A stretch of DNA of 10,799 nucleotides from Chitinophagaceae bacterium (lineage in GTDB: Bacteria; Bacteroidota; Bacteroidia; Chitinophagales; Chitinophagaceae): positions 1-10,799 of the forward strand of contig JACFNM010000107.1 of NCBI GenBank assembly GCA_019454915.1, read 5' to 3'. Numbering within the stretch: the first letter of the stretch is position 1; every line of letters starts with the position of its first letter. This document shows, piece by piece, positions 1 to 10,799 of the stretch. The translations under genes and the position numbers were made by a program. The notes under the pieces are model-generated. The model worked only from the letters and a program-made list of their open reading frames with translations. It did no database searches and had not been told where the DNA came from.

Positions 1-367
1 CGGAACCACTCTCCCGATTGCCCCCGCTCCCGAAAGCGGATGGGGAACGCCACCTCTAACCAATATCCCGGTTAAGTTTGGTTCAGACGAGGAGACTCAG
101 AGAGAACAAATCGGCACCCAGAAATGGATAGCGCTTTATCCCGGAGATATGGAAGCATGGGCAGAAATGCGCAGAACAGGATATCCCAAAATGTATCCGT
201 TGATTCACTCAGACAATCCCGATATGCCTGCTGATAAAATGATCAGGAGAATAGTATATCCTGATCGTGCTTATCAGACTAACCCTAACGGAGTTGCTCA
301 GGGAATACAAATGCTTGGATCCGGAGGGGATAAGGTGAGCACCAAACTTTGGTGGTATGTAAAATGA
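1..367 (+). CDS. SusD/RagB-like nutrient-binding outer-membrane lipoprotein, C-terminal fragment
   Basis: The frame is open from base 2 to the TGA at 365-367, giving the last 121 residues of a protein whose start lies left of the window. The pattern TQKWIALYPGDMEAWAEMRRTGYPK, then a proline-rich stretch, MIRRIVYPDRAYQTNPNGVAQ and a final STKLWWYVK is the typical C-terminal end of the SusD-like family with the 'QKWIAL...EAW.E.RRTGYP' signature (SusD/RagB_2 type). Such proteins are surface lipoproteins that cap a SusC TonB-dependent channel and bind oligosaccharides or other nutrients. A SusC gene would be expected further left. Its presence places the downstream genes in a polysaccharide-utilisation-locus-like context, although 404 non-coding bases separate them. 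Family assignment is confident; the ligand cannot be told from this end. Confidence 0.9.
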   Translation, partial: GTTLPIAPAPESGWGTPPLTNIPVKFGSDEETQREQIGTQKWIALYPGDMEAWAEMRRTGYPKMYPLIHSDNPDMPADKMIRRIVYPDRAYQTNPNGVAQGIQMLGSGGDKVSTKLWWYVK

Positions 368-771: not shown

Positions 772-2140
772 ATGTCAGATAAAGACAATGGGAGAAGGGA
801 TTTTATAAGAAAATCTGTAGTTACTTTGTCGGGATTGGGTGCTTTGCCGGTAATGGGATTGGCGATCACACGTCTTGCCGTTATGCCTGATCAAAGTATC
901 AAAAACCGGAGTGATGGCGAAGATTTGATGAAAATTGCGTTCTTAACGAATACCTATAGAAATAGCGCTCATGCGGATGTTATCGGCACCAAATTGTTTC
1001 TGGGTATCCCAACCGATGAGGGATTGGTGAGACCGAGGGTGAAAATTGTATCTGTATGGATAGATCAGATCGGCGCCAATGATACGGGAGTCAGGATATC
1101 CGAAATGAATGGTGCGAAGGTGTTTCCGACTATTGAAGAAGCTTTGTGTTTAGGTGGAGATAAACTTGCAGTAGATGGTGTAGTGTATGTGGGCGAGCAT
1201 GGTGATTATCCTTACAATCGTCTTGGGGAAAAAAATGTATCCCCGGATGAATTATCTGGAAAAGATATTCAGAGTATTTGATGCATCCGGCAGGTCGGTA
1301 CCCCTGTTTACAGACAAAGCATTGTCTTATAGCTGGCTGGATAGTAAATGGATTTACGACCGCGGTAAGGAACTGAAAGTTCCCATGATGGCGGGATCAT
1401 CACTTCCCTATTGCTGGCGCGACCCTTACCTGGAACATGATTTGGATACCCACATAACAGAAGCCGTTGCCATTGGCTATGCTTCGCTGGATGCTTATGG
1501 ATTTCATGTGGTGGAAATTTTGCAATGTATGCTGGAGAGAAGAAAGAATGGCGAGACAGGCGTAGCGAGCGTGGAAGGACTGCAGGGGCAGGATGTCTGG
1601 AATGCCATTGACTCGGGAAAAATATCCGCAAAATTGGTAAATGCCGCTTGTGATAAAATAAAAGGGAGGGCGAAAGGCCCGATGAGAGAATTGGTAAAAA
1701 AGCCTTCTGCGGTGATAATAAGATATAACGACGGCACCAGAGGAGCTATTTTAATGCTGGATGAATACGTAAAGGAAGGATGGGCGTATGCGGCGGTCGC
1801 TGACGGTAAAACAGTAGCGACTGAATTTGTGCTTGATAATAGCATGACCTATTATCATTTCAGTTATCTGACCCTGAATATTGAGCAGTTTCTGCTGACC
1901 GGTGTACCCCCGATCCCCATTGAACGAAGCTTACTGACCAGTAGTGTTATTGATTTGGGCATCCGGTCTTTAAAAGAAGGGCGCATTAAAGAAACGCCTT
2001 TCCTGAATATTCATTATAATGCGAAAGGCAGCAAGTCAATACGACCTTCAAAACCCCGGCCAACAGGCATCGGAAACCGGGGCTGGCCGCCGGCGGGATA
2101 TGAATTTATTATACCGGATCGGTTTAAGAAAAAAAATTAG
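772..2140 (+). pseudogene. Tat-exported protein of unknown function, interrupted by a one-base frameshift
   Basis: I do not recognise a named function. The first frame (772-1281) begins with a Tat-type leader, RRDFIRK at residues 8-14 followed by a hydrophobic stretch. It then carries SAHADVI, FPTIEEALCLGGDKLAVDGV and GEHGDYPYN. The rest continues in the next frame to a TAG at 2138-2140, with VPLFTDKALSYSW, MAGSSLPYCWRDP, AYGFHVVEILQCMLERRKNGETGV, ELVKKP and GVPPIPIERSLL. The same motifs, in the same order and in a single frame, occur in the gene at 6076-7371. Dropping one A from the A7 run at 1229-1235 gives one 455-residue protein, with YNRLGEKMYPR aligning without gaps to the paralogue's FNEKEQKLYPR. 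The N-terminal half vaguely recalls a Rossmann-type Gfo/Idh/MocA fold (weak inference). It is either a real pseudogene, a sequencing error in the homopolymer, or a gene rescued by slippage. Confidence 0.8.
1229..1235 (+). other. A7 homopolymer, site of the frameshift
   Basis: Seven adenines follow GGGG. Six would join the two halves of the 772-2140 gene in one frame and match the paralogue residue for residue in spacing. Homopolymer length is a common sequencing error and also a common slippage mutation. Confidence 0.75.
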
Positions 2141-2307: not shown

Positions 2308-4044
2308 ATGAAGGATTATCAATGGAGTCTTTTTCTTTTAGGAGCGCTCCTGCTTGTGCAGTGTGGAGAGAGAAGGGAACTACCCAAAGGGGATCCGGAT
2401 AATGGCGGATTGTTCTTGCCGGATGGTTTTGAAGCGGTAGTAGTCGTAGACAGTTTAGGCTCTGCCCGGCATTTGGCAGTCAACGATAACGGTGATATTT
2501 ATGTGAAAATGAGGGATGCTGCTCCACAAGCGGGAAATGCAGCCCTGAGAGATGTGAATGGAGACGGGAGAGCTGATAGTATCGTTTATTTCGGCGACTA
2601 CCCGGTAGAACCTGGTTATGGGCCAACAGGAATGAGGATCCATAACGGCTATCTTTATTTTAGTTCAGCCAGTTCCGTCTACAGGACAAAACTAATTCCC
2701 GGTAAACTGGTTCCGGATGGCAAGATAGAGCGGATACTTTTTGATGATTTCAAGCACGACGTACACGGGCACGAACACGTTGCCAAGCCCATGGCTTTTG
2801 ATAATGAGGGACACATGTACATACCCTTTGGCGCGCCGGGTGATGTTTGCCAGCAGGGCAACCGCGCCCCTGGTATGCCGGGTCAGTTTCCCTGTCCGGA
2901 ATTGGAAGAGCACGGCGGAATCTGGCAGTTTGATGCGAATAAATTAGAACAGACTCAAAAAGACGGAAAGCGATATGCTACCGGGATTCGTTCCGTAGTG
3001 GCCATAAGCTGGAACCCAAACAGTAATACCCTATACGCTTTGCAGCATGGAAGGGATGCCTTTCACAGGGCCTGGCCGGATTTATACACAGAGTGGGAAA
3101 CCGCCATGCTACCTTCTGAAGAATTTTTTAAGGTGGAAGAAGGGTTGGATGGAGGTTGGCCCTACTATTACTACGACCAGATGCAAGGGAAGAAATTGCT
3201 AAACCCCGAATACGGTGGAGATGGAAAAAAAGAAGGGGAAGGCGCTTCCTTAACCAAGCCCATTATCGGGTTTCCCGGACATTGGGCGCCTAATGATCTT
3301 CATTTCTACCAGGGCGATCAATTTCCCGATCATTATAAGCATGGCGCTTTCATCGCTTTTCATGGGTCTACAATTAGAGCGCCGTATCCGCAGGCCGGCT
3401 ATTTTGTGTGCTTTGTACCCTTTAAGGATGGTATGCCTTCCGGTCCGTGGGAAGTGTTTGCCGACGGGTTTGCCGGTGTGGATACTATTGTGAATACCCG
3501 GGATGCTGCCCATCGGCCGGTGGGGATCGCCATGGGACCCGACGGCTCTTTATATATTTCCGAATCGGTGAGTGGCAAAATATGGCGCATCATATACAAG
3601 GGAGATAAAAAACATTTTGGAGAGGCGCAACTTGCAAAAATGGAGGAAAGAAAGATGCGGACGAATATTAAAACACCGGATAAAATTTTGGACAACCTCG
3701 ACAGGAAGTTAGGCAGCGCGGGTGAGGTTGCCTATAATACCTATTGCGCCGTGTGCCACCAGCGGGATGGGCAGGGCGATGCCACAAGGTATCCCACCCT
3801 GAGTGAATCCGAATGGGTAACGGGAGATAAGAGGACCTTGATCAATTTGGTTTTGAACGGGATACAGGGGCCGATAACCGTGAAGGGTAAGCAGGTAAAC
3901 GGCGTAATGCCTAAGCATGATTTTTTGAGCAATGAAGAGATCGCTCAGATTCTCACTTATGTTCGGGTGAGTTTTGGTAATAGCTCAAGCGCTATCCGGG
4001 AGGGTGAGGTGGCCAGGGTGAGAGAGGCGGGAAAGAAAAAATAA
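2308..4044 (+). CDS. PQQ-dependent sugar (sorbosone-type) dehydrogenase fused to cytochrome c, lipoprotein
   Basis: The start at 2308 gives a lipoprotein leader (MKDYQWSLFLLGALLLVQC, lipidated Cys19). The open frame extends back to 2230 but the extra residues spoil the signal, so I reject them. Residues about 25-440 form a quinoprotein beta-propeller of the sorbosone/soluble glucose dehydrogenase type: DVNGDGRADS, VHGHEHVAKPM, RSVVAISWNP, GLDGGWPYYYYDQ, GHWAPNDLHFY, RPVGIAMGPDGSLYISE. H157 and R228 are candidates for the quinone-site His and Arg (inference from soluble glucose dehydrogenase). Residues about 470-560 are a class I cytochrome c with haem motif CAVCH (480-484) and probable axial Met534 in VMPKH. 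Such enzymes oxidise an aldose or similar sugar in the periplasm, often giving a lactone, and pass electrons through the haem to the respiratory chain. A lactonase-like gene two genes on fits this. The substrate is not readable. No PQQ synthesis genes are in the window. Confidence 0.88.
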   Translation: MKDYQWSLFLLGALLLVQCGERRELPKGDPDNGGLFLPDGFEAVVVVDSLGSARHLAVNDNGDIYVKMRDAAPQAGNAALRDVNGDGRADSIVYFGDYPVEPGYGPTGMRIHNGYLYFSSASSVYRTKLIPGKLVPDGKIERILFDDFKHDVHGHEHVAKPMAFDNEGHMYIPFGAPGDVCQQGNRAPGMPGQFPCPELEEHGGIWQFDANKLEQTQKDGKRYATGIRSVVAISWNPNSNTLYALQHGRDAFHRAWPDLYTEWETAMLPSEEFFKVEEGLDGGWPYYYYDQMQGKKLLNPEYGGDGKKEGEGASLTKPIIGFPGHWAPNDLHFYQGDQFPDHYKHGAFIAFHGSTIRAPYPQAGYFVCFVPFKDGMPSGPWEVFADGFAGVDTIVNTRDAAHRPVGIAMGPDGSLYISESVSGKIWRIIYKGDKKHFGEAQLAKMEERKMRTNIKTPDKILDNLDRKLGSAGEVAYNTYCAVCHQRDGQGDATRYPTLSESEWVTGDKRTLINLVLNGIQGPITVKGKQVNGVMPKHDFLSNEEIAQILTYVRVSFGNSSSAIREGEVARVREAGKKK

Positions 4045-4083
4045 TGGACTGGAAGGTGACGGGAAAACAGATTCGAAAACAGC

Positions 4084-4974
4084 ATGATTTTTTGCAAACG
4101 ACAATACAAAGACATGATAAATGCACCTGAATGTGGAACCGCTCATATACTGCCTGATTCCAGGGGGAAACGGAGCCGGATTTTTAATAGTGGAAGATTG
4201 TGGGTAAAAGCGATGATCTGGCTGGCGCCTTTCGTCTTTTCTTTCTCGGGTTTGATTGCAGCAGACCGGGACGTGCAAGCTTTGGACACCACAAAAAAAG
4301 AAATTAAGAAATTACCCGTATATAATGTGAAGAAACTCCGGCGCCGGATGACAATAGACGGAAATTGGGATAAGCCTGAATGGAAAAAGATTAAGCCTTT
4401 GCGGATGACCCATTATATGGGGAAGGTTCCTCACTTTGAGCCCAAAGCCGAGGCGAAGATGGTGTACGACGACGAGAATATTTACGTTATTTTCCGGGTC
4501 AAGGATAAGTTTGTAAGCAGCCACGTAACGGAGTATAACGGAAACGTCTCCGGAGACGCCTGCGTGGAATTTTTCTTTTCTCCCGATGAGAAATTCCCCT
4601 TGTACTATTTTAATCTGGAGGTGAATGCGGGTGGCACTCCTTTGATTTTTTACGTGACTACTCCCTGGACGGGATTCAAGAAACTGGAAGCTGAAGATAT
4701 CAGGCAAATAGAGATAGCCCATTCATTGCCGAAGGTGGTGGATCCGGAAATTAAAGAGGAGGTGACCTGGACACTCGAATACCGGGTACCTCTTGAAATG
4801 CTGCGGAAGTTTTCAAACGTTACTTATCCTAAGCCCGGTGTTATCTGGAAAGCTAATTTTTATAAGACGGCAAGCAAAACTTCAAATCCACATTATCTTA
4901 CCTGGGCATTTGTAGATAATCCAAAGCCAAACTTTCATTTACCTCAATTTTTTGGTATATTGAAATTTAAATAA
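4084..4974 (+). CDS. Exported carbohydrate-binding family 9 (CBM9)-like protein
   Basis: The core (residues about 75-296) matches stand-alone CBM9-like proteins: the opening strand RMTIDGNWDKPEWKKI near residue 88, KAEAKMVYDDENIYVIFRVKD, GDACVEFFFSPDEKFPLYYFNLEVNAGG, and the closing WKANFYKTASK plus HLPQFFGILKFK. Known CBM9 modules bind sugar ends; stand-alone members of this group are mostly uncharacterised, so binding of a sugar or sugar acid is inference. A hydrophobic export segment (AMIWLAPFVFSFSGLIAA) lies around residues 43-60. The start is uncertain: ATG 4084 gives an unusually long basic N-region, ATG 4114 is similar, and ATG 4213 or the TTG at 4198 would give a normal short Sec leader. 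The gene follows the quinoprotein by 39 bases, so co-transcription is likely. Confidence 0.8.
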   Translation: MIFCKRQYKDMINAPECGTAHILPDSRGKRSRIFNSGRLWVKAMIWLAPFVFSFSGLIAADRDVQALDTTKKEIKKLPVYNVKKLRRRMTIDGNWDKPEWKKIKPLRMTHYMGKVPHFEPKAEAKMVYDDENIYVIFRVKDKFVSSHVTEYNGNVSGDACVEFFFSPDEKFPLYYFNLEVNAGGTPLIFYVTTPWTGFKKLEAEDIRQIEIAHSLPKVVDPEIKEEVTWTLEYRVPLEMLRKFSNVTYPKPGVIWKANFYKTASKTSNPHYLTWAFVDNPKPNFHLPQFFGILKFK

Positions 4975-4989
4975 GATTCACAGTCCGCC

Positions 4990-5010
4990 GCGCAGCAAGT
5001 GTTGCTTCGC
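4990..5010. other. Small hairpin between the CBM9-like and SMP-30-like genes
   Basis: gcg-c-agcaa, loop gtg, ttgct-t-cgc forms a stem of eight pairs with one mismatch. No T-run follows, so it is not a standard intrinsic terminator. It could be an RNA-processing or stability element, or chance. Confidence 0.35.
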
Positions 5011-5081
5011 CATGATTCGGTAATATGAGACAGGTCTATTTGAATCCTAAAGAAAAATGGTCTTTACTAAAACAAACGATA

Positions 5082-6017
5082 ATGAAAAAACTGTTCTTTA
5101 ACTCCTTTCTGCTTTCTTCTGTTTTCCTATTGTTCCTGTTTTCAGCCTGTTCGTCTTCCGGACAGAAAGAGCAGGAAGGTTCGGAAGAACTATTTGTTGC
5201 CTCCGTATTGACTCCTGTGAATGCTTTTACTTCCGGAATTGAAGGCCCCGCAGTGGATAAAAATGGGATCATATATGCCGTGAACTTTGAACGTCAGGGG
5301 ACGATCGGAAAAGTGACACCGGAGGGAGAAGCTTCTCTTTTCATAGAGCTTCCGGAAGGCAGTATTGCCAACGGCATCCGGTTCGATTCCGAAGGCAATA
5401 TGTTTATAGCCGATTATATGGGGCACAATATTTTTAAAGTGGACATGGCCACAAAAGAGCTTAAAGTTTATGCCCACAACGGAGATATGAGTCAGCCAAA
5501 CGATATTGCCATTGACAGCAAAAATCGCCTGTATGCCAGCGATCCAAACTGGAAAGAAGGAACGGGAAGGATTTGGAGGGTTGATACGAATGGTGAAATT
5601 GTGTTACTGAAAGATAGTTTGGGAACGGCAAACGGAATTGAAGTGAGCCCGGACGAAAAGACGCTTTATGTGAATGAATCCGTTCAGCGAAAAGTATGGG
5701 CCTACGAATTATTGCCGGATGGTAACATCGGCGAAAGAAAAATCTTTATTGAGTTCCCCGATTTTGGAATGGACGGCATGAGATGCGACAAGGATGGTAA
5801 TGTATATATCACCCGGTATGGAAAGGGAACGGTGGTGAAAGTGTCTCCGGAAGGAAAAGTCTTGCAGGAGATCCAGTTGACCGGGAAGAGCGCTTCCAAT
5901 ATTTGCTTCGGTGGTTCTGACGGCCGCACGGCTTATGTAACCTTAGCAGACCAGGGGAATATTGAAACCTTCAGGGTGGATATTCCTGCCAGGGAGTGGG
6001 AGATGCAACATAAGTAG
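5082..6017 (+). CDS. SMP-30/gluconolactonase/LRE-family lipoprotein
   Basis: ATG 5082 begins a clear lipoprotein leader (MKKLFF..., lipobox FSAC, Cys23); an in-frame upstream ATG at 5025 only adds a charged extension and is rejected. The 311-residue product is a six-bladed propeller of the SMP-30/gluconolactonase family: GIEGPAVD, GSIANGIRFDSEGNMFIADY, PNDIAIDSKNRLYASDP, TANGIEVSPDEKTLYVNES, GMDGMRCDKDGNVYITRYG. E54, N184 and D231 match the spacing of the metal ligands of SMP-30 (E18, N154, D204 in the human protein), and N140 matches the substrate-site Asn (N103), so the site looks intact. The family opens sugar lactones to aldonic acids with a divalent metal. Placed behind a PQQ-type sugar dehydrogenase, it most likely hydrolyses that enzyme's lactone product on the periplasmic side. 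The exact lactone is unknown. Confidence 0.88.
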   Translation: MKKLFFNSFLLSSVFLLFLFSACSSSGQKEQEGSEELFVASVLTPVNAFTSGIEGPAVDKNGIIYAVNFERQGTIGKVTPEGEASLFIELPEGSIANGIRFDSEGNMFIADYMGHNIFKVDMATKELKVYAHNGDMSQPNDIAIDSKNRLYASDPNWKEGTGRIWRVDTNGEIVLLKDSLGTANGIEVSPDEKTLYVNESVQRKVWAYELLPDGNIGERKIFIEFPDFGMDGMRCDKDGNVYITRYGKGTVVKVSPEGKVLQEIQLTGKSASNICFGGSDGRTAYVTLADQGNIETFRVDIPAREWEMQHK

Positions 6018-6075
6018 GCTGGGTTAGCAGAGAAGAAATTATATTCAGAGTGTTAAGTTGAAGTTGTTCCCTACT

Positions 6076-7371
6076 ATGAATCGTAAAAAATTTATCAGTT
6101 TTCTTTCGGTTTTACCCTGGTCGGTGTCCCGGGTCGATCATTTGAATTCGGTGTTGGCTAAACCCGCATTGGAAAGCAATAGAGATAGTCCAACTCAGAA
6201 TACGCCCAAATCAATAGCCGCCATCGTCACCGAAATACGCCCCAATTCTCATGCGGAGGTGATTCTCGGAAAATACCTCGAAGGCTATAACCGCGACAAT
6301 CGGAAGCCTTACCCCGAGTCTAAACTGGTTTCCATTTTCACGGAACAGGTACCGGATAATGATATGAGCAGGATGTTTGCTGAAAAATATAATGTGCCGA
6401 TTTTCCCGACGGTTATGGATGCGCTGACGCTTGGCGGAGATACGCTGGCTGTGGATGGCGTGTTGTTGATTGGCGAACATGGCAGTTATCCTTTTAATGA
6501 GAAGGAGCAGAAACTCTATCCGCGTTATGAAATGTTTTTAAAAATCACCGATGTCTTTCGCAAGTATTATAAGTCCGTTCCGGTATTTAACGACAAACAT
6601 CTGTCCTGGAACTGGCGTCAAGCGAAAAGAATGGTGGAGATTTCCCGCGAACTCGGGTTTCCGATGCTGGCGGGTTCTTCGGTGCCCGTAGCCTATCGTG
6701 TACCCGCAGTGGATACGCCGTATGGTGTAGAACAAAAACATGCGGTGGCCATATCTTTTAGCGGACTTGATATCTATGGCTTTCATTTGCTGGAAGCGCT
6801 GCAATCTGTGACGGAGAGAAGGAAAGGAGGCGAAACGGGTGTGGAATGGGTTCAGTGTCTGGAGGGAGAGGATTGCTGGAATTATATGGAACAGACAGAA
6901 TGGGTGCGTCGCTTATTCACGGAAGCCATCAAAAACAGTCTCACAAAAAAAGACGGGAACATGAAGGAACTGGTGAAGAAGCCGGCGGTCTTCATTATCC
7001 GGTATAAAGACGGGCTGCAGGCAGCAGCTTTTTTGATGACGGGTTTGGTGGAAGATTTTACCGTGGCGATTGATTTGGCTGGGCAATCAGAACCATTTTC
7101 TACATTGATGGCTTTGCAGGATGGGAAGCCTCATCATCATTTTTCCTGCTTAGTGGAGAATATCGAAGAGATGTTTACAACGGGTATCCCCCCTTATCCT
7201 GTTGAACGGACTTTATTGGCAAGTGGTATGCTGGACTTTGTTCTTGAATCGAGAATCAGGAAATACCAGAAACTAAAAACGCCCGAACTATCGGATCTGC
7301 AATATCGTGCGCCGCGTGCCTCTCATTTCTGTATGAAAGGATGGGGAACTGACGGAAAGTTAATCGAATAA
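6076..7371 (+). CDS. Exported protein of unknown function, intact paralogue of the 772-2140 gene
   Basis: I know no assigned function. The ATG at 6076 is preferred over an in-frame TTG at 6058 because it opens with MNRKKFISFLSVLPW, a Tat-like leader with RK in place of RR. The 431-residue product shares with the broken 772-2140 gene, in order: NSHAEVI, IFPTVMDALTLGGDTLAVDGV, GEHGSYPFN, YPRYEMF, VPVFNDKHLSWNW, MAGSSVP, YGFHLLEALQ, ERRKGGETGVEWV, MKELVKKP, IIRYKDG, and TGIPPYPVERTLL. The conserved H, E, D and R residues in these blocks suggest an enzyme or ligand-binding site. The N-terminal alpha/beta pattern resembles Gfo/Idh/MocA-type Rossmann proteins, but I see no clear GxGxxG nucleotide loop, so cofactor binding is doubtful. 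It lies 58 bases after the SMP-30-like gene and 47 before the PLP enzyme, so it belongs to the same unit. Confidence 0.8.
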   Translation: MNRKKFISFLSVLPWSVSRVDHLNSVLAKPALESNRDSPTQNTPKSIAAIVTEIRPNSHAEVILGKYLEGYNRDNRKPYPESKLVSIFTEQVPDNDMSRMFAEKYNVPIFPTVMDALTLGGDTLAVDGVLLIGEHGSYPFNEKEQKLYPRYEMFLKITDVFRKYYKSVPVFNDKHLSWNWRQAKRMVEISRELGFPMLAGSSVPVAYRVPAVDTPYGVEQKHAVAISFSGLDIYGFHLLEALQSVTERRKGGETGVEWVQCLEGEDCWNYMEQTEWVRRLFTEAIKNSLTKKDGNMKELVKKPAVFIIRYKDGLQAAAFLMTGLVEDFTVAIDLAGQSEPFSTLMALQDGKPHHHFSCLVENIEEMFTTGIPPYPVERTLLASGMLDFVLESRIRKYQKLKTPELSDLQYRAPRASHFCMKGWGTDGKLIE

Positions 7372-7418
7372 TAAAGACTGCATAAATACTAACAATTTAA
7401 TCATTCAATCAAATTATC

Positions 7419-8642
7419 ATGAGGCGCAGGGATATTTTAAAGAAACTCGCTTTGACTCCTTTGCTGGGCGGTGTAGCCGGTATGAAGAACCCGGTTCAGT
7501 CTTTACCTTTTTCTTCTTCATCGTTACCTAAGCGTGATTTATTTCAGGAATTAGGCTTAAGAACTTTTATTAATGCCGCAGGAAATTATACCGTGATGAC
7601 GGGTTCTCTAATGCCCGAAGAAGTAATGGATGCGATGTATGCTTCCTCCAAAAAGTATGTGATGCTGGATGAAGTGCAGGATAAGGTGGGAGAAAAAATT
7701 GCAGAAATATGTCATGCGGAAGCGGCGTTCGTAACGGCCGGCTGCTGGTCGGCCCTTGTGTTGGGTATGGCAGGCGTATTAACCGGGATGGATAACAGGA
7801 AGGTGAAACAACTTCCTGTATTGGCCGGTACTGATTTGAAATCAGAGGTTATCGTGCAAAAGAGTCATGCCATAGGCTATGAGCAGGGACTGGTACATGC
7901 CGGAGTAAGTATAGTGACCGTCAAAACCCGGGCTGAACTTGAAAAAGCCATTAACGAAAAAACGGCTATGCTCTGGTTTCTCAACCGGGAAGCGCCGATG
8001 GGTGAGATACAGCATGAGGAATGGATACAACTGGGGAAAAAGTATAAGCTGCCCACCATGATTGATATAGCAGCAGATGTTCCTCCGGTAGAGAACTTAT
8101 GGAAGTTTAACGATATGGGTTTTGACCTTGTCGCCATTTCCGGTGGTAAGGCCATGTGCGGGCCTCAAAGCGCAGGAATTCTCATGGGGAAAAAGGATTT
8201 GATAGCAGCGGCAAGATTGAATGCCAATCCCCGGTCAGGTGTGGGACGTGGACAGAAAGTAAATAAGGAAGAAATTATCGGTATGTACGTGGCACTGGAA
8301 AGATATGTGAACAAAGACCACGCGAAAGAATGGAAATTATGGGAAAATAAGATTGCTTACATCAATAATACATTAAAACCTATACCGGGTGTTACCACTG
8401 AGGTGATTGTTCCGCCGATTGACAATCATACACCTTCGTTAAAGATTTCCTGGAATCCGGATAAAATAAAGTGGACCAGTGAGGAAATGCGAGATAAATT
8501 ACGATTCGGAAATCCTTCCATAGAAGTCATTTCCTGGGAAGAAAGAAACAGTATCCGGATCACCGTTTTTATGTTACAGCCCGGAGAAGAAAAATCTGTA
8601 GCAGGCAGAATCAGTCAGGAGCTAAAAAACGGACTGGTATAA
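7419..8642 (+). CDS. SelA/DgaE-like PLP-dependent lyase with Tat leader
   Basis: The 407-residue product begins MRRRDILKKLALTPLLGGVAG, a twin-arginine leader. The mature part is a fold-type I PLP enzyme of the selenocysteine synthase (SelA)/D-glucosaminate-6-phosphate ammonia-lyase (DgaE) group: GLRTFINAAGNYTVMTGSLMP near the start, EAAFVTAGCWSAL (phosphate-binding region), TMIDIAADVPP with D216 as probable partner of the pyridine nitrogen, and AISGGKAMCGPQSAG with K244 as probable Schiff-base lysine. The SGGKxxxGPQ form is the one seen in DgaE-type proteins. DgaE removes ammonia from an amino sugar acid to give a 2-keto-3-deoxy acid. A related reaction on an unphosphorylated amino acid or amino sugar acid is inferred here, because export argues against a phosphorylated substrate. 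Tat export would suit a protein folded around its cofactor. Amidohydrolase and RidA genes follow directly; a cog3964 amidohydrolase beside a DgaE-like gene is known from other bacteria. The exact reaction is uncertain. Confidence 0.85.
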   Translation: MRRRDILKKLALTPLLGGVAGMKNPVQSLPFSSSSLPKRDLFQELGLRTFINAAGNYTVMTGSLMPEEVMDAMYASSKKYVMLDEVQDKVGEKIAEICHAEAAFVTAGCWSALVLGMAGVLTGMDNRKVKQLPVLAGTDLKSEVIVQKSHAIGYEQGLVHAGVSIVTVKTRAELEKAINEKTAMLWFLNREAPMGEIQHEEWIQLGKKYKLPTMIDIAADVPPVENLWKFNDMGFDLVAISGGKAMCGPQSAGILMGKKDLIAAARLNANPRSGVGRGQKVNKEEIIGMYVALERYVNKDHAKEWKLWENKIAYINNTLKPIPGVTTEVIVPPIDNHTPSLKISWNPDKIKWTSEEMRDKLRFGNPSIEVISWEERNSIRITVFMLQPGEEKSVAGRISQELKNGLV

Positions 8643-8680
8643 GGAAATAATTATCGGGATTTATTTAAATTAAGTCGTTT

Positions 8681-9937
8681 GTGCAAAAACTCTGGCTCAT
8701 AGTCGTTTCTTTTTTTTGGTTAGGTGTTACGGTTGTTTCATCTCAAACCTACAGTATTCTTATCAAAGGAGGTTATCTCATAGACCCCAAAAATAACCTG
8801 AATGAGATGATGGATGTAGCCATACAGGATGGAAAGATAGCGAAGGTGGCTAAAAATATAGAGGCAGCCTCGGCGAAGCTGGTGATTGATGCTAAGGGTT
8901 TGTATGTTACTCCCGGACTCATTGACATACATGGACATGTTTTTCATGGCGCCGATCCGGAAGGGCAGTTGCAGAATGGATTTGTTTCTTTACCGTCGGA
9001 TGCGTTTACCTTTCGCTCGGGCATTACAACCATTGTAGATGCCGGATCTTCGGGGGCAAAGTTGTTTCCCCTGTTCAAAAAGAATATAATTGACAAATCC
9101 TCAACCAGGGTTTTGGCTTTTCTGAACATATCCGTCGAGGGGATGAGGGGTGATGAAATGTCTGTCTATCAGCAAAACACGAGTTTTATGGATCCGGAAA
9201 TGGCGGCTAATTATGCGAAGCATTATAAAGATATTATTGTCGGGATTAAAGTGGCGCATTATCATAGTCCCAGTTTTATAGCGGTTGACCGGGCCGTGGA
9301 GGCCGGCAGGTTAGCCAATATCCCGGTTATGGTGGATTTTGGAGGCGCTAAACCTAGGCTCTCGCTTAAGTCCTTATTTTTAGAACATTTAAGACCGGGA
9401 GATATTTTTACGCATGCTTTTGGTGAACTGGTGGATACCAAGGAAACGATAGTGGATTTAAAAACAAAAAGACTGGAACCTTACGTATGGGAAGCGAGAA
9501 AGAGGGGTATTATCTTCGATGTGGGTCATGGTGGAGGCAGCTTTGCGTTTACCCAGGCTTTACCGGCTGCCAAAGCAGGTTTTTATCCCGAAACGATAAG
9601 CACAGATTTGCACACAGGTAGCATGAACAGTGCGATGAAAGACTTGTTGAATGTTATGTCCAAATTCCTGGCCATGAATATGCCGCTTACGGAGGTAATC
9701 AAAGCGAGTACCTGGATGCCGGCCAAAGTAATTAAACACGAAGAATTGGGGCATCTGTCGGTGGGCGCCATAGCAGATATCGCCATCCTGAATTTGCGCA
9801 AGGGTGAATTTGGATTTTATGATGTGGCAAGGGTAAAACTGACGGGAAAGGAATTATTGGAATGTGAGGTTACTGTTAAAGATGGCAAAGTGATGTATGA
9901 TTTGAATGCGAGGTCTATGACCAATCTGCCCAGGTAG
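8681..9937 (+). CDS. Exported amidohydrolase/deacetylase-family metallohydrolase (cog3964/EF0837 type)
   Basis: It starts at GTG 8681, 38 bases after the previous stop; this start gives a complete Sec leader (MQKLWLIVVSFFWLGVTVVSS, probable cut before QTYSI). The 418-residue product has the amidohydrolase plan: small beta domain first (ILIKGGYLIDPKNNLNEMMDVAIQDGKI), then the metal motif GLIDIHGHVFHG (H84, H86), K190 in GIKVAHYHS as the likely carboxylated bridging lysine, H245 in THAFGE, H283 in VGHGGGSFAF, and catalytic D309 in ISTDLHTG. The set is complete, so activity is likely. Characterised cog3964 members (Atu3266, EF0837) hydrolyse acetyl-(R)-mandelate, while their natural substrates remain unclear. 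Removal of an acyl group from an N- or O-acylated acid is the natural guess. Cytoplasmic relatives lack a leader; this one should work in the periplasm with its neighbours. Confidence 0.88.
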   Translation: MQKLWLIVVSFFWLGVTVVSSQTYSILIKGGYLIDPKNNLNEMMDVAIQDGKIAKVAKNIEAASAKLVIDAKGLYVTPGLIDIHGHVFHGADPEGQLQNGFVSLPSDAFTFRSGITTIVDAGSSGAKLFPLFKKNIIDKSSTRVLAFLNISVEGMRGDEMSVYQQNTSFMDPEMAANYAKHYKDIIVGIKVAHYHSPSFIAVDRAVEAGRLANIPVMVDFGGAKPRLSLKSLFLEHLRPGDIFTHAFGELVDTKETIVDLKTKRLEPYVWEARKRGIIFDVGHGGGSFAFTQALPAAKAGFYPETISTDLHTGSMNSAMKDLLNVMSKFLAMNMPLTEVIKASTWMPAKVIKHEELGHLSVGAIADIAILNLRKGEFGFYDVARVKLTGKELLECEVTVKDGKVMYDLNARSMTNLPR

Positions 9938-10010
9938 TTTTGGAAAAAATTGTCATTATTTTTATTAAACGAAAGAAACGGTAAAGCATTTTTAACCTTC
10001 ATTTTATATT

Positions 10011-10553
10011 ATGAAAAGACTAAACCACTTAATCCTTCTTATTGTTGTATTGATGTTGACTCAATCATCCTTCGCTCAGAACACAGAGATAGACCCCGAA
10101 GCGAAACTGAAGGAATTGGGAATTGAACTACGGGTTCCCGGCCCTCCGTTAGCGAACTTTGTACCAGCGGTGCGTGTTGGCAATCTCGTTTTCCTTTCGG
10201 GGCAGGGTCCATTGAAAACGGACGGAAAATTTATGACCGGAAAAGTAGGGAAGGTGTATGATATCAAACAGGCGCAGAGGGCGGCCCGGCTTACGGGTAT
10301 TAATTTATTAGAAGCGTTAAAGGCAGAAATAGGCGATCTGAATAAGGTGAAGAGAATAGTAAAAGTATTGGGGATGGTTAATGCAGTTCCCGATTTTGAC
10401 CAGCATCCGAAAGTGATGAACGGCTTTTCCGATTTCATGGTGGAGGTTTTTGGGGAAAGAGGCCGGCATGCACGTTCCGCTGTGGGTATGGGATCTTTGC
10501 CGTTTAATATTCCCGTGGAAATTGAAATGATTGTTGAACTCAAAGAGAATTGA
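10011..10553 (+). CDS. Exported RidA (YjgF/YER057c/UK114)-family protein
   Basis: The 180-residue product has a Sec leader (MKRLNHLILLIVVLMLTQSSFA, cut before QNTEID) followed by a RidA domain: VGNLVFLSGQGPL, GINLLEALKAEIGDLNKVKRIVKVLGMV, NGFSDFMVEVFGERGRHARSAVGMGSLP, VEIEMIVEL. R155 in HARSAVG and E170 in PVEIEM correspond to the catalytic Arg105/Glu120 pair of bacterial RidA, so imine deaminase activity is plausible. RidA hydrolyses enamine/imine intermediates released by PLP lyases such as serine/threonine dehydratases. Ordinary RidA is about 130 residues and cytoplasmic; the extra length here is mostly the leader and a short linker. It lies two genes after the Tat-exported PLP enzyme, an obvious candidate source of such an intermediate. 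Family call is firm; partner is inference. Confidence 0.9.
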   Translation: MKRLNHLILLIVVLMLTQSSFAQNTEIDPEAKLKELGIELRVPGPPLANFVPAVRVGNLVFLSGQGPLKTDGKFMTGKVGKVYDIKQAQRAARLTGINLLEALKAEIGDLNKVKRIVKVLGMVNAVPDFDQHPKVMNGFSDFMVEVFGERGRHARSAVGMGSLPFNIPVEIEMIVELKEN

Positions 10554-10575
10554 CCTCATTCTAAAATTAAGCACC

Positions 10576-10799
10576 TTGAATATTTATAAATGGAGTTTTA
10601 CTGTTGCGGGAGTTTGTCTATTGACGGCATTGGTATTCGTGTTCATGGGTAATATACCCGCGTCAGGCCCTCTTCTGATTGCCTTTTTTGTGTTGCTGGC
10701 GATAGGTTGCCGGGGTTTTAAACTGTTGAAAGGATATTCCTATACGCTCACGATTTTTGCGGCAGTGACTTCGGCATTGTATTACCCTGTCTATTTTGT
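10576..10799 (+). CDS. Bile acid:sodium symporter (BASS)-like membrane protein, N-terminal fragment
   Basis: An open frame runs off the right edge, 22 bases after the RidA stop. The likely start is TTG 10576 (reads M/L-NIYKWSFT); no ATG is available before the first membrane segment, and the frame stays open upstream into the RidA gene. The 74 visible residues hold three hydrophobic segments (about 6-26, 29-47, 54-74), with GPLLIAFFVLLAIGCRG and LKGYSYTLTIFAAVTSALYYPVYF between and at the end. The LKG-(Y/F)-S/A-(Y/F)-T pattern followed by a 'YYP' segment resembles the start of the long bile acid:sodium symporter family proteins found in Bacteroidota. BASS relatives carry bile acids, pyruvate, 2-keto acids or pantoate-type acids with sodium, so uptake of the pathway's acid product is a reasonable inference. 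Confidence 0.65.
   Translation, partial: MNIYKWSFTVAGVCLLTALVFVFMGNIPASGPLLIAFFVLLAIGCRGFKLLKGYSYTLTIFAAVTSALYYPVYF

Follow-up and report, generated by a model that had tools for sequence, protein, structure and literature searches.

Exported amidohydrolase, PLP enzyme, and RidA encoded together in Bacteroidota: a tentative extracytoplasmic pathway for acylated amino sugars

Results

A 10,799-nucleotide stretch of DNA from a Chitinophagaceae bacterium (contig JACFNM010000107.1; hereafter, the window) carries a run of forward-strand genes for a GSDH-type quinone dehydrogenase fused to cytochrome c, an SMP-30 family protein, a SelA/DgaE-like pyridoxal 5'-phosphate (PLP) enzyme, an amidohydrolase, and a RidA-family protein, each with an export leader. 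We suggest—tentatively, and at somewhat under even confidence—that this cluster specifies a pathway for breaking down an acylated amino sugar outside the cytoplasm, most likely in the periplasm. The window makes up contig C384 of its own genome (so called below), which measures 4.64 Mb in 802 contigs and is 95.5% complete. A preliminary description of the same DNA had placed these genes in a co-directional cluster, with a SusD gene before it and a sodium symporter-like gene after it, and every gene that it named was recovered on the forward strand from the list of open reading frames (ORFs), Pfam and NCBIfam searches, and, for the symporter, similarity to a related gene.

In the proposed pathway, a SusC/D pair would admit the sugar through the outer membrane, and the dehydrogenase–cytochrome c fusion would oxidise it at C1 to a lactone, which the SMP-30 protein (in other loci, a 7-bladed lactonase) would open to a 2-acylamino-2-deoxyaldonate. 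The amidohydrolase would then remove the acyl group, the PLP enzyme would eliminate water and ammonia, and RidA would hydrolyse the released enamine or imine to a 2-keto-3-deoxyaldonate. Uptake of the 2-keto acid would be the task of an SBF/BASS sodium symporter and, in some clusters, may follow a step by an exported RraA-family enzyme. Export of the PLP enzyme by the twin-arginine translocation (Tat) route would allow its cofactor to be loaded in the cytoplasm beforehand. The substrate, the order of the steps, and every activity named here are what we infer from the material below.

The families, leaders, linkage, and residues are themselves read directly from sequence, both in the window and in relatives gathered by using the PLP enzyme to scan GTDB species genomes, where the best 80 of 133 encoding stretches gave 77 related loci (L005–L081), all from Bacteroidota. 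Genes in these loci are simple longest-ORF calls with approximate start sites, and leaders were judged from a hydrophobic segment before the domain and from the twin-arginine (RR) motif. The window PLP enzyme carries the Tat-type leader RRRDILKKLALTPLLGG, and the leaders of its amidohydrolase and RidA read as Sec type, all three as previously described. Lipoprotein labels had been given to two further proteins: that of the SMP-30 protein is borne out by its lipobox (FSAC), but the dehydrogenase, for all its clear leader, has an atypical lipobox (VQC), so that the label is less sure there.

These leaders are conserved. An RR leader is present in 101 of the 102 evaluable copies of the PLP enzyme (3 of 105 were dropped), the single copy without the call (L016) belonging to an ORF that was called too long and contains NRRTLLKRL internally; the hydrophobic segment is found in 94 of the 102, and the other 8 fall just below threshold. 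Every evaluable relative of the amidohydrolase (95/95), the dehydrogenase–cytochrome c (39/39; 1 of 40 dropped), and the SMP-30 protein (15/15; 4 of 19 dropped) has a leader, as do 13 of 14 RraA proteins (the remaining one just below threshold). RidA occurs as a Tat type, with leaders in 53 of 54 copies and the last just below threshold, and as the window type, with leaders in 16 of 20; pooled, 69–70 of 74 have one. MlrC-family proteins, which are cytosolic, have none (0/9), as expected. Among 429 other complete ORFs of at least 120 amino acids in the same loci, an RR motif with a hydrophobic stretch occurs in 26, and hydrophobicity alone is seen in 217, making it a weak test by itself. RR leaders on the DgaE-like relatives are thus well in excess of chance (101/102 versus 26/429). 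Over all loci scored, some of them duplicated and with the Rhizobium comparator L085 outside the count, 109 of 111 amidohydrolases have leaders; the two without are the Enterococcus faecalis and Chelativorans comparators. TatC scores over its cut-off in the window's own genome.

Linkage was counted for co-directional genes within 8 kb of the PLP gene, on which the survey is anchored and which every sampled locus therefore bears. The amidohydrolase gene is linked in 68 of the 77 loci, any RidA gene in 55, and both together in 54. For the remaining families, the counts are 34 for the dehydrogenase–cytochrome c and 36 for either GSDH type, 24 for an SMP-30 or 7-bladed lactonase, 22 for SBF, 23 each for SusC and SusD, 12 for RraA, and 8 for an unnamed Tat-type protein also encoded in the window; amidohydrolase, RidA, oxidase, and lactonase are all linked in 15. 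Contig ends truncate many of the loci; for the 51 that extend 8 kb to either side, the corresponding figures are 46 (amidohydrolase), 39 (any RidA), 27 (dehydrogenase–cytochrome c), 29 (either GSDH), 19 (lactonase), 18 (SBF), 22 (SusC), 20 (SusD), 11 (RraA), and 7 (unnamed Tat protein), with the same 15 for the four families together. The preliminary description had made its pathway depend on leaders in homologous clusters and on ties between the core and the oxidation genes; the leaders are there, and the ties hold in part, for an oxidase in 36 and for a lactonase in 24 of the 77 loci.

The co-occurrence for which that description had proposed a genome survey is clear among 198 Bacteroidota genomes, where TIGR01437 (the PLP enzyme), NF006689 (the amidohydrolase), and the Tat-type RidA each match the same four, the window's own included, and are clustered in every one. 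For two families, complete overlap by chance has a probability of 8e-7, with the own genome excluded and kinship among genomes ignored. Relatives of the dehydrogenase–cytochrome c occur in 22 of the 198, but scores above 650 bits are confined to the four PLP-positive genomes. Relatives of the exported RraA occur in 11, among them all four PLP-positive genomes: the RraA gene is part of the cluster in G126, G134, and G171; on contig C671 of the own genome, it adjoins an amidohydrolase gene.

We next consider the residues of the individual enzymes. The window PLP enzyme scores below the cut-offs of both DgaE models (TIGR01437, 161.4 versus 385.3 bits; NF047797, 137.8 versus 600 bits), and the solved structure of the PLP enzyme of the Salmonella Dga pathway (7lc0) matches over profile positions 39–406. 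In an alignment of 107 exported PLP enzymes, the PLP lysine is retained in all and a basic residue stands at the carboxylate position in 106, while His162 is found in 3, His163 in none (the window has Glu-Ala at the pair), Arg301 in none, Arg332 in 1, and Arg346 in none; E. faecalis DgaE retains all five. Judged by this alignment, the exported enzymes are without the proton-donor histidine and the phosphate-binding arginines of the solved phospho-enzyme. In the excerpted account of that enzyme, an H163A variant is still active and releases the free enamine, and RidA is named as a degrader of such enamines (PMC9529869), so that loss of His163 would give RidA work to do. Rhizobial PLP relatives, which keep both histidines and two of the three arginines, also adjoin RidA and ABC (ATP-binding cassette) importer genes. 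Because of them, these residues can neither tell phosphorylated from free substrates nor settle the need for RidA, and two simpler ideas are weakened: that loss of His163 alone explains the RidA partner, and that the absence of the three arginines is proof of a substrate without phosphate.

A different reaction of the SelA-like fold—transfer, racemisation, or carbon–carbon cleavage—in a cluster that handles an unknown amide metabolite would also accommodate the low DgaE scores, the lost histidines and arginines, and the unnamed Tat-type and MlrC proteins of related clusters. We consider this very unlikely, given the invariant PLP lysine, the near-universal basic residue at the carboxylate site, and the linkage to RidA and RraA, which fits a lyase yielding an enamine and a keto acid.

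In the amidohydrolases, the positions aligned with the HxH motif, the beta-6 histidine, and the beta-8 aspartate are conserved in 99 of 99 sequences and the lysine in 98; we take these positions of NF006689 proteins to have metal-site roles, with the lysine carboxylated. The beta-5 histidine is replaced by aspartate in 96 and by glutamate in 3, four cytosolic comparators retaining histidine, and by this alignment the replacement marks an exported subfamily in both phyla in which it was seen (Bacteroidota and, as discussed below, Acidobacteriota). The haem-binding CxxCH motif of the window dehydrogenase reads CAVCH, and the window RidA, with its Rid domain, has the conserved arginine of the Rid family in the motif HARSAVG. 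For RraA, Mazurkewich et al. reportedly defined a motif D-X20-R-D in 2014; it is present in 7 of 18 RraA copies (one a fragment), the others differing at the first aspartate, and we did not retain it as a marker of aldolase activity. PMC5065237 describes two motifs for RraA-like proteins and regards most of these proteins as probable class II pyruvate aldolases.

Clues to substrate and product come from neighbouring genes. One locus (L034) combines, in a row, genes for the PLP enzyme, the amidohydrolase, a 2-keto-3-deoxygalactonokinase (PF05035, 194.8 bits), a 2-keto-3-deoxy-6-phosphogluconate (KDPG) aldolase (TIGR01182, 167.2 bits; cut-off 156.05), a major facilitator superfamily carrier, and a second PLP enzyme; the kinase and aldolase point to a 2-keto-3-deoxyhexonate product. 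A GH20 hexosaminidase gene lies upstream in 4 of the 77 loci (L016–L019, from related genera, with the Pfam assignment made on the L019 copy only), and a mannonate dehydratase gene in one (L079). As far as the excerpts go, a Flavobacterium RraA-family enzyme is described as a dehydratase/decarboxylase acting on a 2-keto-3-deoxy sugar acid (PMC8563752), and BASS carriers as transporting pyruvate, 2-keto acids, and pantoate (PMC10645422). Combined, these clues would favour a route from an acylated amino sugar to a 2-keto-3-deoxyhexonate. SusC/D pairs, linked in 23 of 77 loci, fit a sugar or a peptide-like substrate, since such pairs also import peptides. Two other ideas were set aside. The kinase is no general marker, being seen only in L034 among the loci examined; and a metal-dependent bile-salt hydrolase activity, suggested by the name of the SBF family, was dropped, the enzyme in question being, in the excerpt of PMC13081902, a 101-kDa YtcJ-like protein of a different amidohydrolase group.

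The features of the window are collected in Table 1. From the dehydrogenase gene onward, intergenic gaps measure 38–107 bp, and the symporter frame overlaps that of RidA. The symporter piece, 89 codons long, matched no model in an NCBIfam search and is 61% identical to a gene (L028:17691-18797) that scores 137.7 bits for PF01758 (SBF). A scan for promoter-like sites (20 versus 19.8 expected) and terminators (17 versus 11.5 expected) was uninformative.

Table 1. Features of the 10,799-nucleotide window
Feature	Coordinates	Strand	Evidence and remarks
SusD-like outer-membrane lipoprotein, C-terminal end	2..367	+	PF12741 104.6 bits
Tat-type protein of unnamed family	772..2140	+	split: ORFs 772-1281 and 1187-2140
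GSDH-type (quinone) sugar dehydrogenase–cytochrome c fusion with export leader	2308..4044	+	PF07995 40.6 bits (cut-off 25); PF00034 38.8 bits (cut-off 21.3)
CBM9_2 protein, probable leader before residue 70	4084..4974	+	PF16011 113.5 bits
SMP-30/gluconolactonase-family lipoprotein	5082..6017	+	PF08450 155.4 bits; ATG at 5082
Tat-like protein of unnamed family, paralogue of 772-2140	6076..7371	+	no Pfam or NCBIfam match
SelA/DgaE-like PLP enzyme, Tat-exported, proposed ammonia lyase	7419..8642	+	TIGR01437 161.4 bits (cut-off 385.3); RR leader
Amidohydrolase, Sec-exported, proposed N-deacylase	8681..9937	+	NF006689 432.8 bits (cut-off 371)
RidA-family protein, Sec-exported	10011..10553	+	PF14588 70.6 bits; PF01042 56.0 bits (cut-off 27.3)
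SBF/BASS sodium symporter start, cut by contig end	10531..10799	+	true start codon uncertain

Three of these features go beyond the preliminary description: the CBM9_2 protein, whose relatives adjoin GSDH and PLP genes in six loci (L016–L019, L023, and L026), the Tat-like protein at 6076–7371, and its frameshifted paralogue at 772–2140. The frameshift falls in a run of A within 1187–1281 and may be either genuine or an assembly artefact. Neither the 6076–7371 protein, whose Tat-like leader has RK in place of RR, nor either piece of its paralogue matches Pfam, and the former also has no NCBIfam or PDB sequence match. It has 7973 relatives among 8000 scored candidates, with many invariant polar residues; among the 120 matches listed, named relatives are hypothetical or uncharacterised proteins, some from Bryobacteraceae. 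Relatives of the 772–2140 protein include L005:19171-20541. A Gfo/Idh-type identity for this family found no support, as profiles of four such proteins aligned over the Tat leaders only.

Further sets of related genes are present in the own genome, in which the window RidA is the only close copy of its type. A second set (PLP, Tat-type RidA, PLP, amidohydrolase, and GSDH genes) is apparently split between contigs C733 (L094) and C671 (L092), and a third, on C501 (L093), comprises a longer PLP protein and two amidohydrolases. Such longer Tat-type PLP relatives (532–573 amino acids; L093:4473-6083, L036:3554-5272, and L082:10262-11857) have an extra C-terminal domain and in some loci are encoded on the other strand, next to a Tat-type DUF362 protein; in nine of them, counted apart, His162 and His163 are found in none, Arg301 in two, and Arg332 in one. 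Genes for the leaderless MlrC-family proteins stand in the same gene run in nine loci (L005, L008–L010, L012–L015, and L062), eight of which also have a gamma-glutamyltransferase gene with a leader; none was seen in L013, where the contig ends.

Discussion

The chemistry proposed here has a close precedent in the Ong pathway of Pseudoalteromonas prydzensis (OngB, OngC, OngD, and KdgK), as far as the excerpts of its accounts go (PMC9537276, PMC12017989). There, N-acetylglucosaminate loses its acetyl group, a PLP enzyme then deaminates the product to 2-keto-3-deoxygluconate with no prior phosphorylation, RidA (OngD) is required for growth, and outer-membrane import runs through TonB-type receptors. 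Like their proposed counterparts in the window, deacylase, PLP deaminase, and RidA are encoded together. By contrast, OngB and OngC are predicted to be cytoplasmic, whereas the enzymes of the window and its relatives carry leaders; OngB has a D-aminoacylase-like fold, whereas the window amidohydrolase matches D-aminoacylase chains over residues 23–87 only; and the aldonate is described as arising from the action of a lytic polysaccharide monooxygenase (LPMO) on chitin, with no dehydrogenase, and as being taken up intact by an SSS carrier. Ong also has a GH20 enzyme (OngA); in our loci GH20 was seen in L016–L019 only. Since Ong has the same chemical string, the earlier statement that no such pathway had been described holds for the location, the enzyme families, and the oxidation front end but not for the chemistry. 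What appears new is the exported location, the enzyme families, and the RraA partner; we found no paper on an exported version in the open-licence literature.

A homologous PLP enzyme and a 2-keto-3-deoxygluconate-type product also link the window to the Salmonella Dga pathway (DgaABCD as phosphotransferase system (PTS), DgaE/DGL, and DgaF), which differs, in the excerpted account, in being cytosolic, in its PTS-phosphorylated substrate, and in having His162, His163, Arg301, Arg332, and Arg346 (PMC9529869). We also examined plasmid records, namely 4 of the 238 with an amidohydrolase match and 3 of the 237 with a PLP-enzyme match (one of these three unannotated). On an E. faecalis plasmid (L083), an NF006689-type amidohydrolase gene adjoins DgaE, as in the window, but without leaders, with the beta-5 histidine kept and with no RidA annotated nearby; its MupG-family, PTS IIC, and sugar kinase neighbours hint at a link to peptidoglycan amino sugars for this cytosolic version. 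On a Granulicella tundricola plasmid (L082; Acidobacteriota), genes for a TonB-dependent receptor, RraA, a PLP enzyme, RidA, a second PLP enzyme, an amidohydrolase, a 7-bladed lactonase, a FAD_binding_4/BBE oxidase, and a GH35 galactosidase run in one direction. Much as in the window, several of the products carry leaders: both PLP enzymes and RidA have Tat leaders, the amidohydrolase a Sec leader, and the lactonase a Tat-like one. It differs in having the FAD/BBE oxidase in place of the dehydrogenase–cytochrome c and no annotated SBF or SusD. The BBE group includes sugar C1 oxidases, and a non-homologous enzyme could thus replace the dehydrogenase in Granulicella. Leaders are absent, in turn, where ABC importer genes accompany amidohydrolase, RidA, and PLP genes (Phyllobacterium) or RidA and PLP genes (Rhizobium etli). 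The deacylase and DgaE-like enzyme, often with RidA, are therefore a recurring, not universal, module, and export is a special feature in two phyla, one known from a single record. Tat export of a PLP protein is itself familiar from PvdN of pseudomonads, which acts in siderophore maturation, not sugar breakdown.

Several observations weigh against an amino-sugar pathway with an oxidative front end. The oxidase is unlinked in 41 of 77 loci (22 of the 51 with full flanks) and the lactonase in 53 (32 of 51), partly because contigs end, and in G134 the GSDH gene lies 2.3 Mb from the cluster. The available stretch yielded no amidohydrolase gene in 8 of the 77 loci (full flanks were present in 4 of these), and 4 of the 20 window-type RidA proteins have no leader (L047 twice, L071, and L079). 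No PqqB over cut-off was found in the 95.5% complete own genome, the one gene for pyrroloquinoline quinone (PQQ) synthesis searched for, so that the PQQ may be of external origin or a different cofactor may serve. Nor was 2-keto-3-deoxygalactonokinase found in the 4 genomes tested, the own-genome KDPG aldolase match is just under its cut-off, and the Granulicella oxidase has no visible leader. Annotation shows neither a PLP nor a RidA gene within 6 kb of the Chelativorans and Rhizobium leguminosarum plasmid amidohydrolases, and the rhizobial PLP relatives keep the histidines and arginines noted above.

The incomplete linkage would be explained if one neighbourhood housed two functions, a RidA/PLP/amidohydrolase/RraA/SBF pathway and a separate sugar oxidation by the dehydrogenase–cytochrome c, SMP-30, and CBM9 proteins. 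The core does occur with neither oxidase nor lactonase in the same run (L068–L070, L073, L076, and L077), in keeping with this, as is the distant oxidase of G134. Yet among the 198 genomes the closest dehydrogenase–cytochrome c subfamily is confined to PLP-positive ones, and the Granulicella cluster pairs an unrelated oxidase with a lactonase, and we consider a division into two functions improbable. The pathway of the preliminary description is upheld in part: conserved export, a co-localised core, the kinase and aldolase of L034, and the acidobacterial analogue speak for it, but oxidation is often unlinked.

The main rival concerns the substrate. Instead of sugar acids, the exported core might break down N-acyl beta-hydroxy (D-)amino acids or small amides resembling peptides: the amidohydrolase would deacylate, the PLP enzyme dehydrate and deaminate, RidA clear the enamine, and SBF import the keto acid. 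In 2013, Ornelas et al. reportedly found N-acetyl-D-amino acids and acetyl-(R)-mandelate to be substrates of cog3964 amidohydrolases, which we count in its favour. The cytosolic relatives on two rhizobial plasmids adjoin ABC importer genes, once near threonine-catabolic genes, which keeps an N-acyl amino acid route in play, and MlrC (9/77 loci) and gamma-glutamyltransferase (8/77) share the gene run in some relatives. Against it stands linkage to sugar-oxidising and lactonase families, RraA, 2-keto-3-deoxygalactonokinase, KDPG aldolase, and GH20; on balance, we regard amino acid substrates as unlikely, if more credible than the other alternatives.

The amino-sugar pathway has a stronger form, of which we are distinctly doubtful: a complete, phosphate-free, Entner–Doudoroff-like catabolism of N-acylated amino sugars outside the inner membrane, through oxidation, deacylation, PLP-dependent deamination, RidA-assisted release, and sodium-coupled uptake of the 2-keto acid. 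In some lineages an exported RraA-type aldolase would cleave the product, acetate and ammonia being left outside. An ammonia lyase stripped of its own proton donor would then work alongside an extracytoplasmic RidA. We found no report of such a RidA in the open-licence literature.

Conclusions

According to the excerpted text of PMC9537276, the routes described for amino sugars and their acids carry out deamination in the cytoplasm, most of them following phosphorylation. If our proposal is correct, deamination, PLP chemistry, and enamine clearing would be placed in the periplasm, and the several Tat- and Sec-exported enzyme copies of certain environmental Bacteroidota, and of at least one acidobacterium, would be explained. 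Ammonia and acetate would be expected to appear outside the membrane, and functions would follow for genes now named "aminotransferase class V-fold", "amidohydrolase/deacetylase", and "RidA family".

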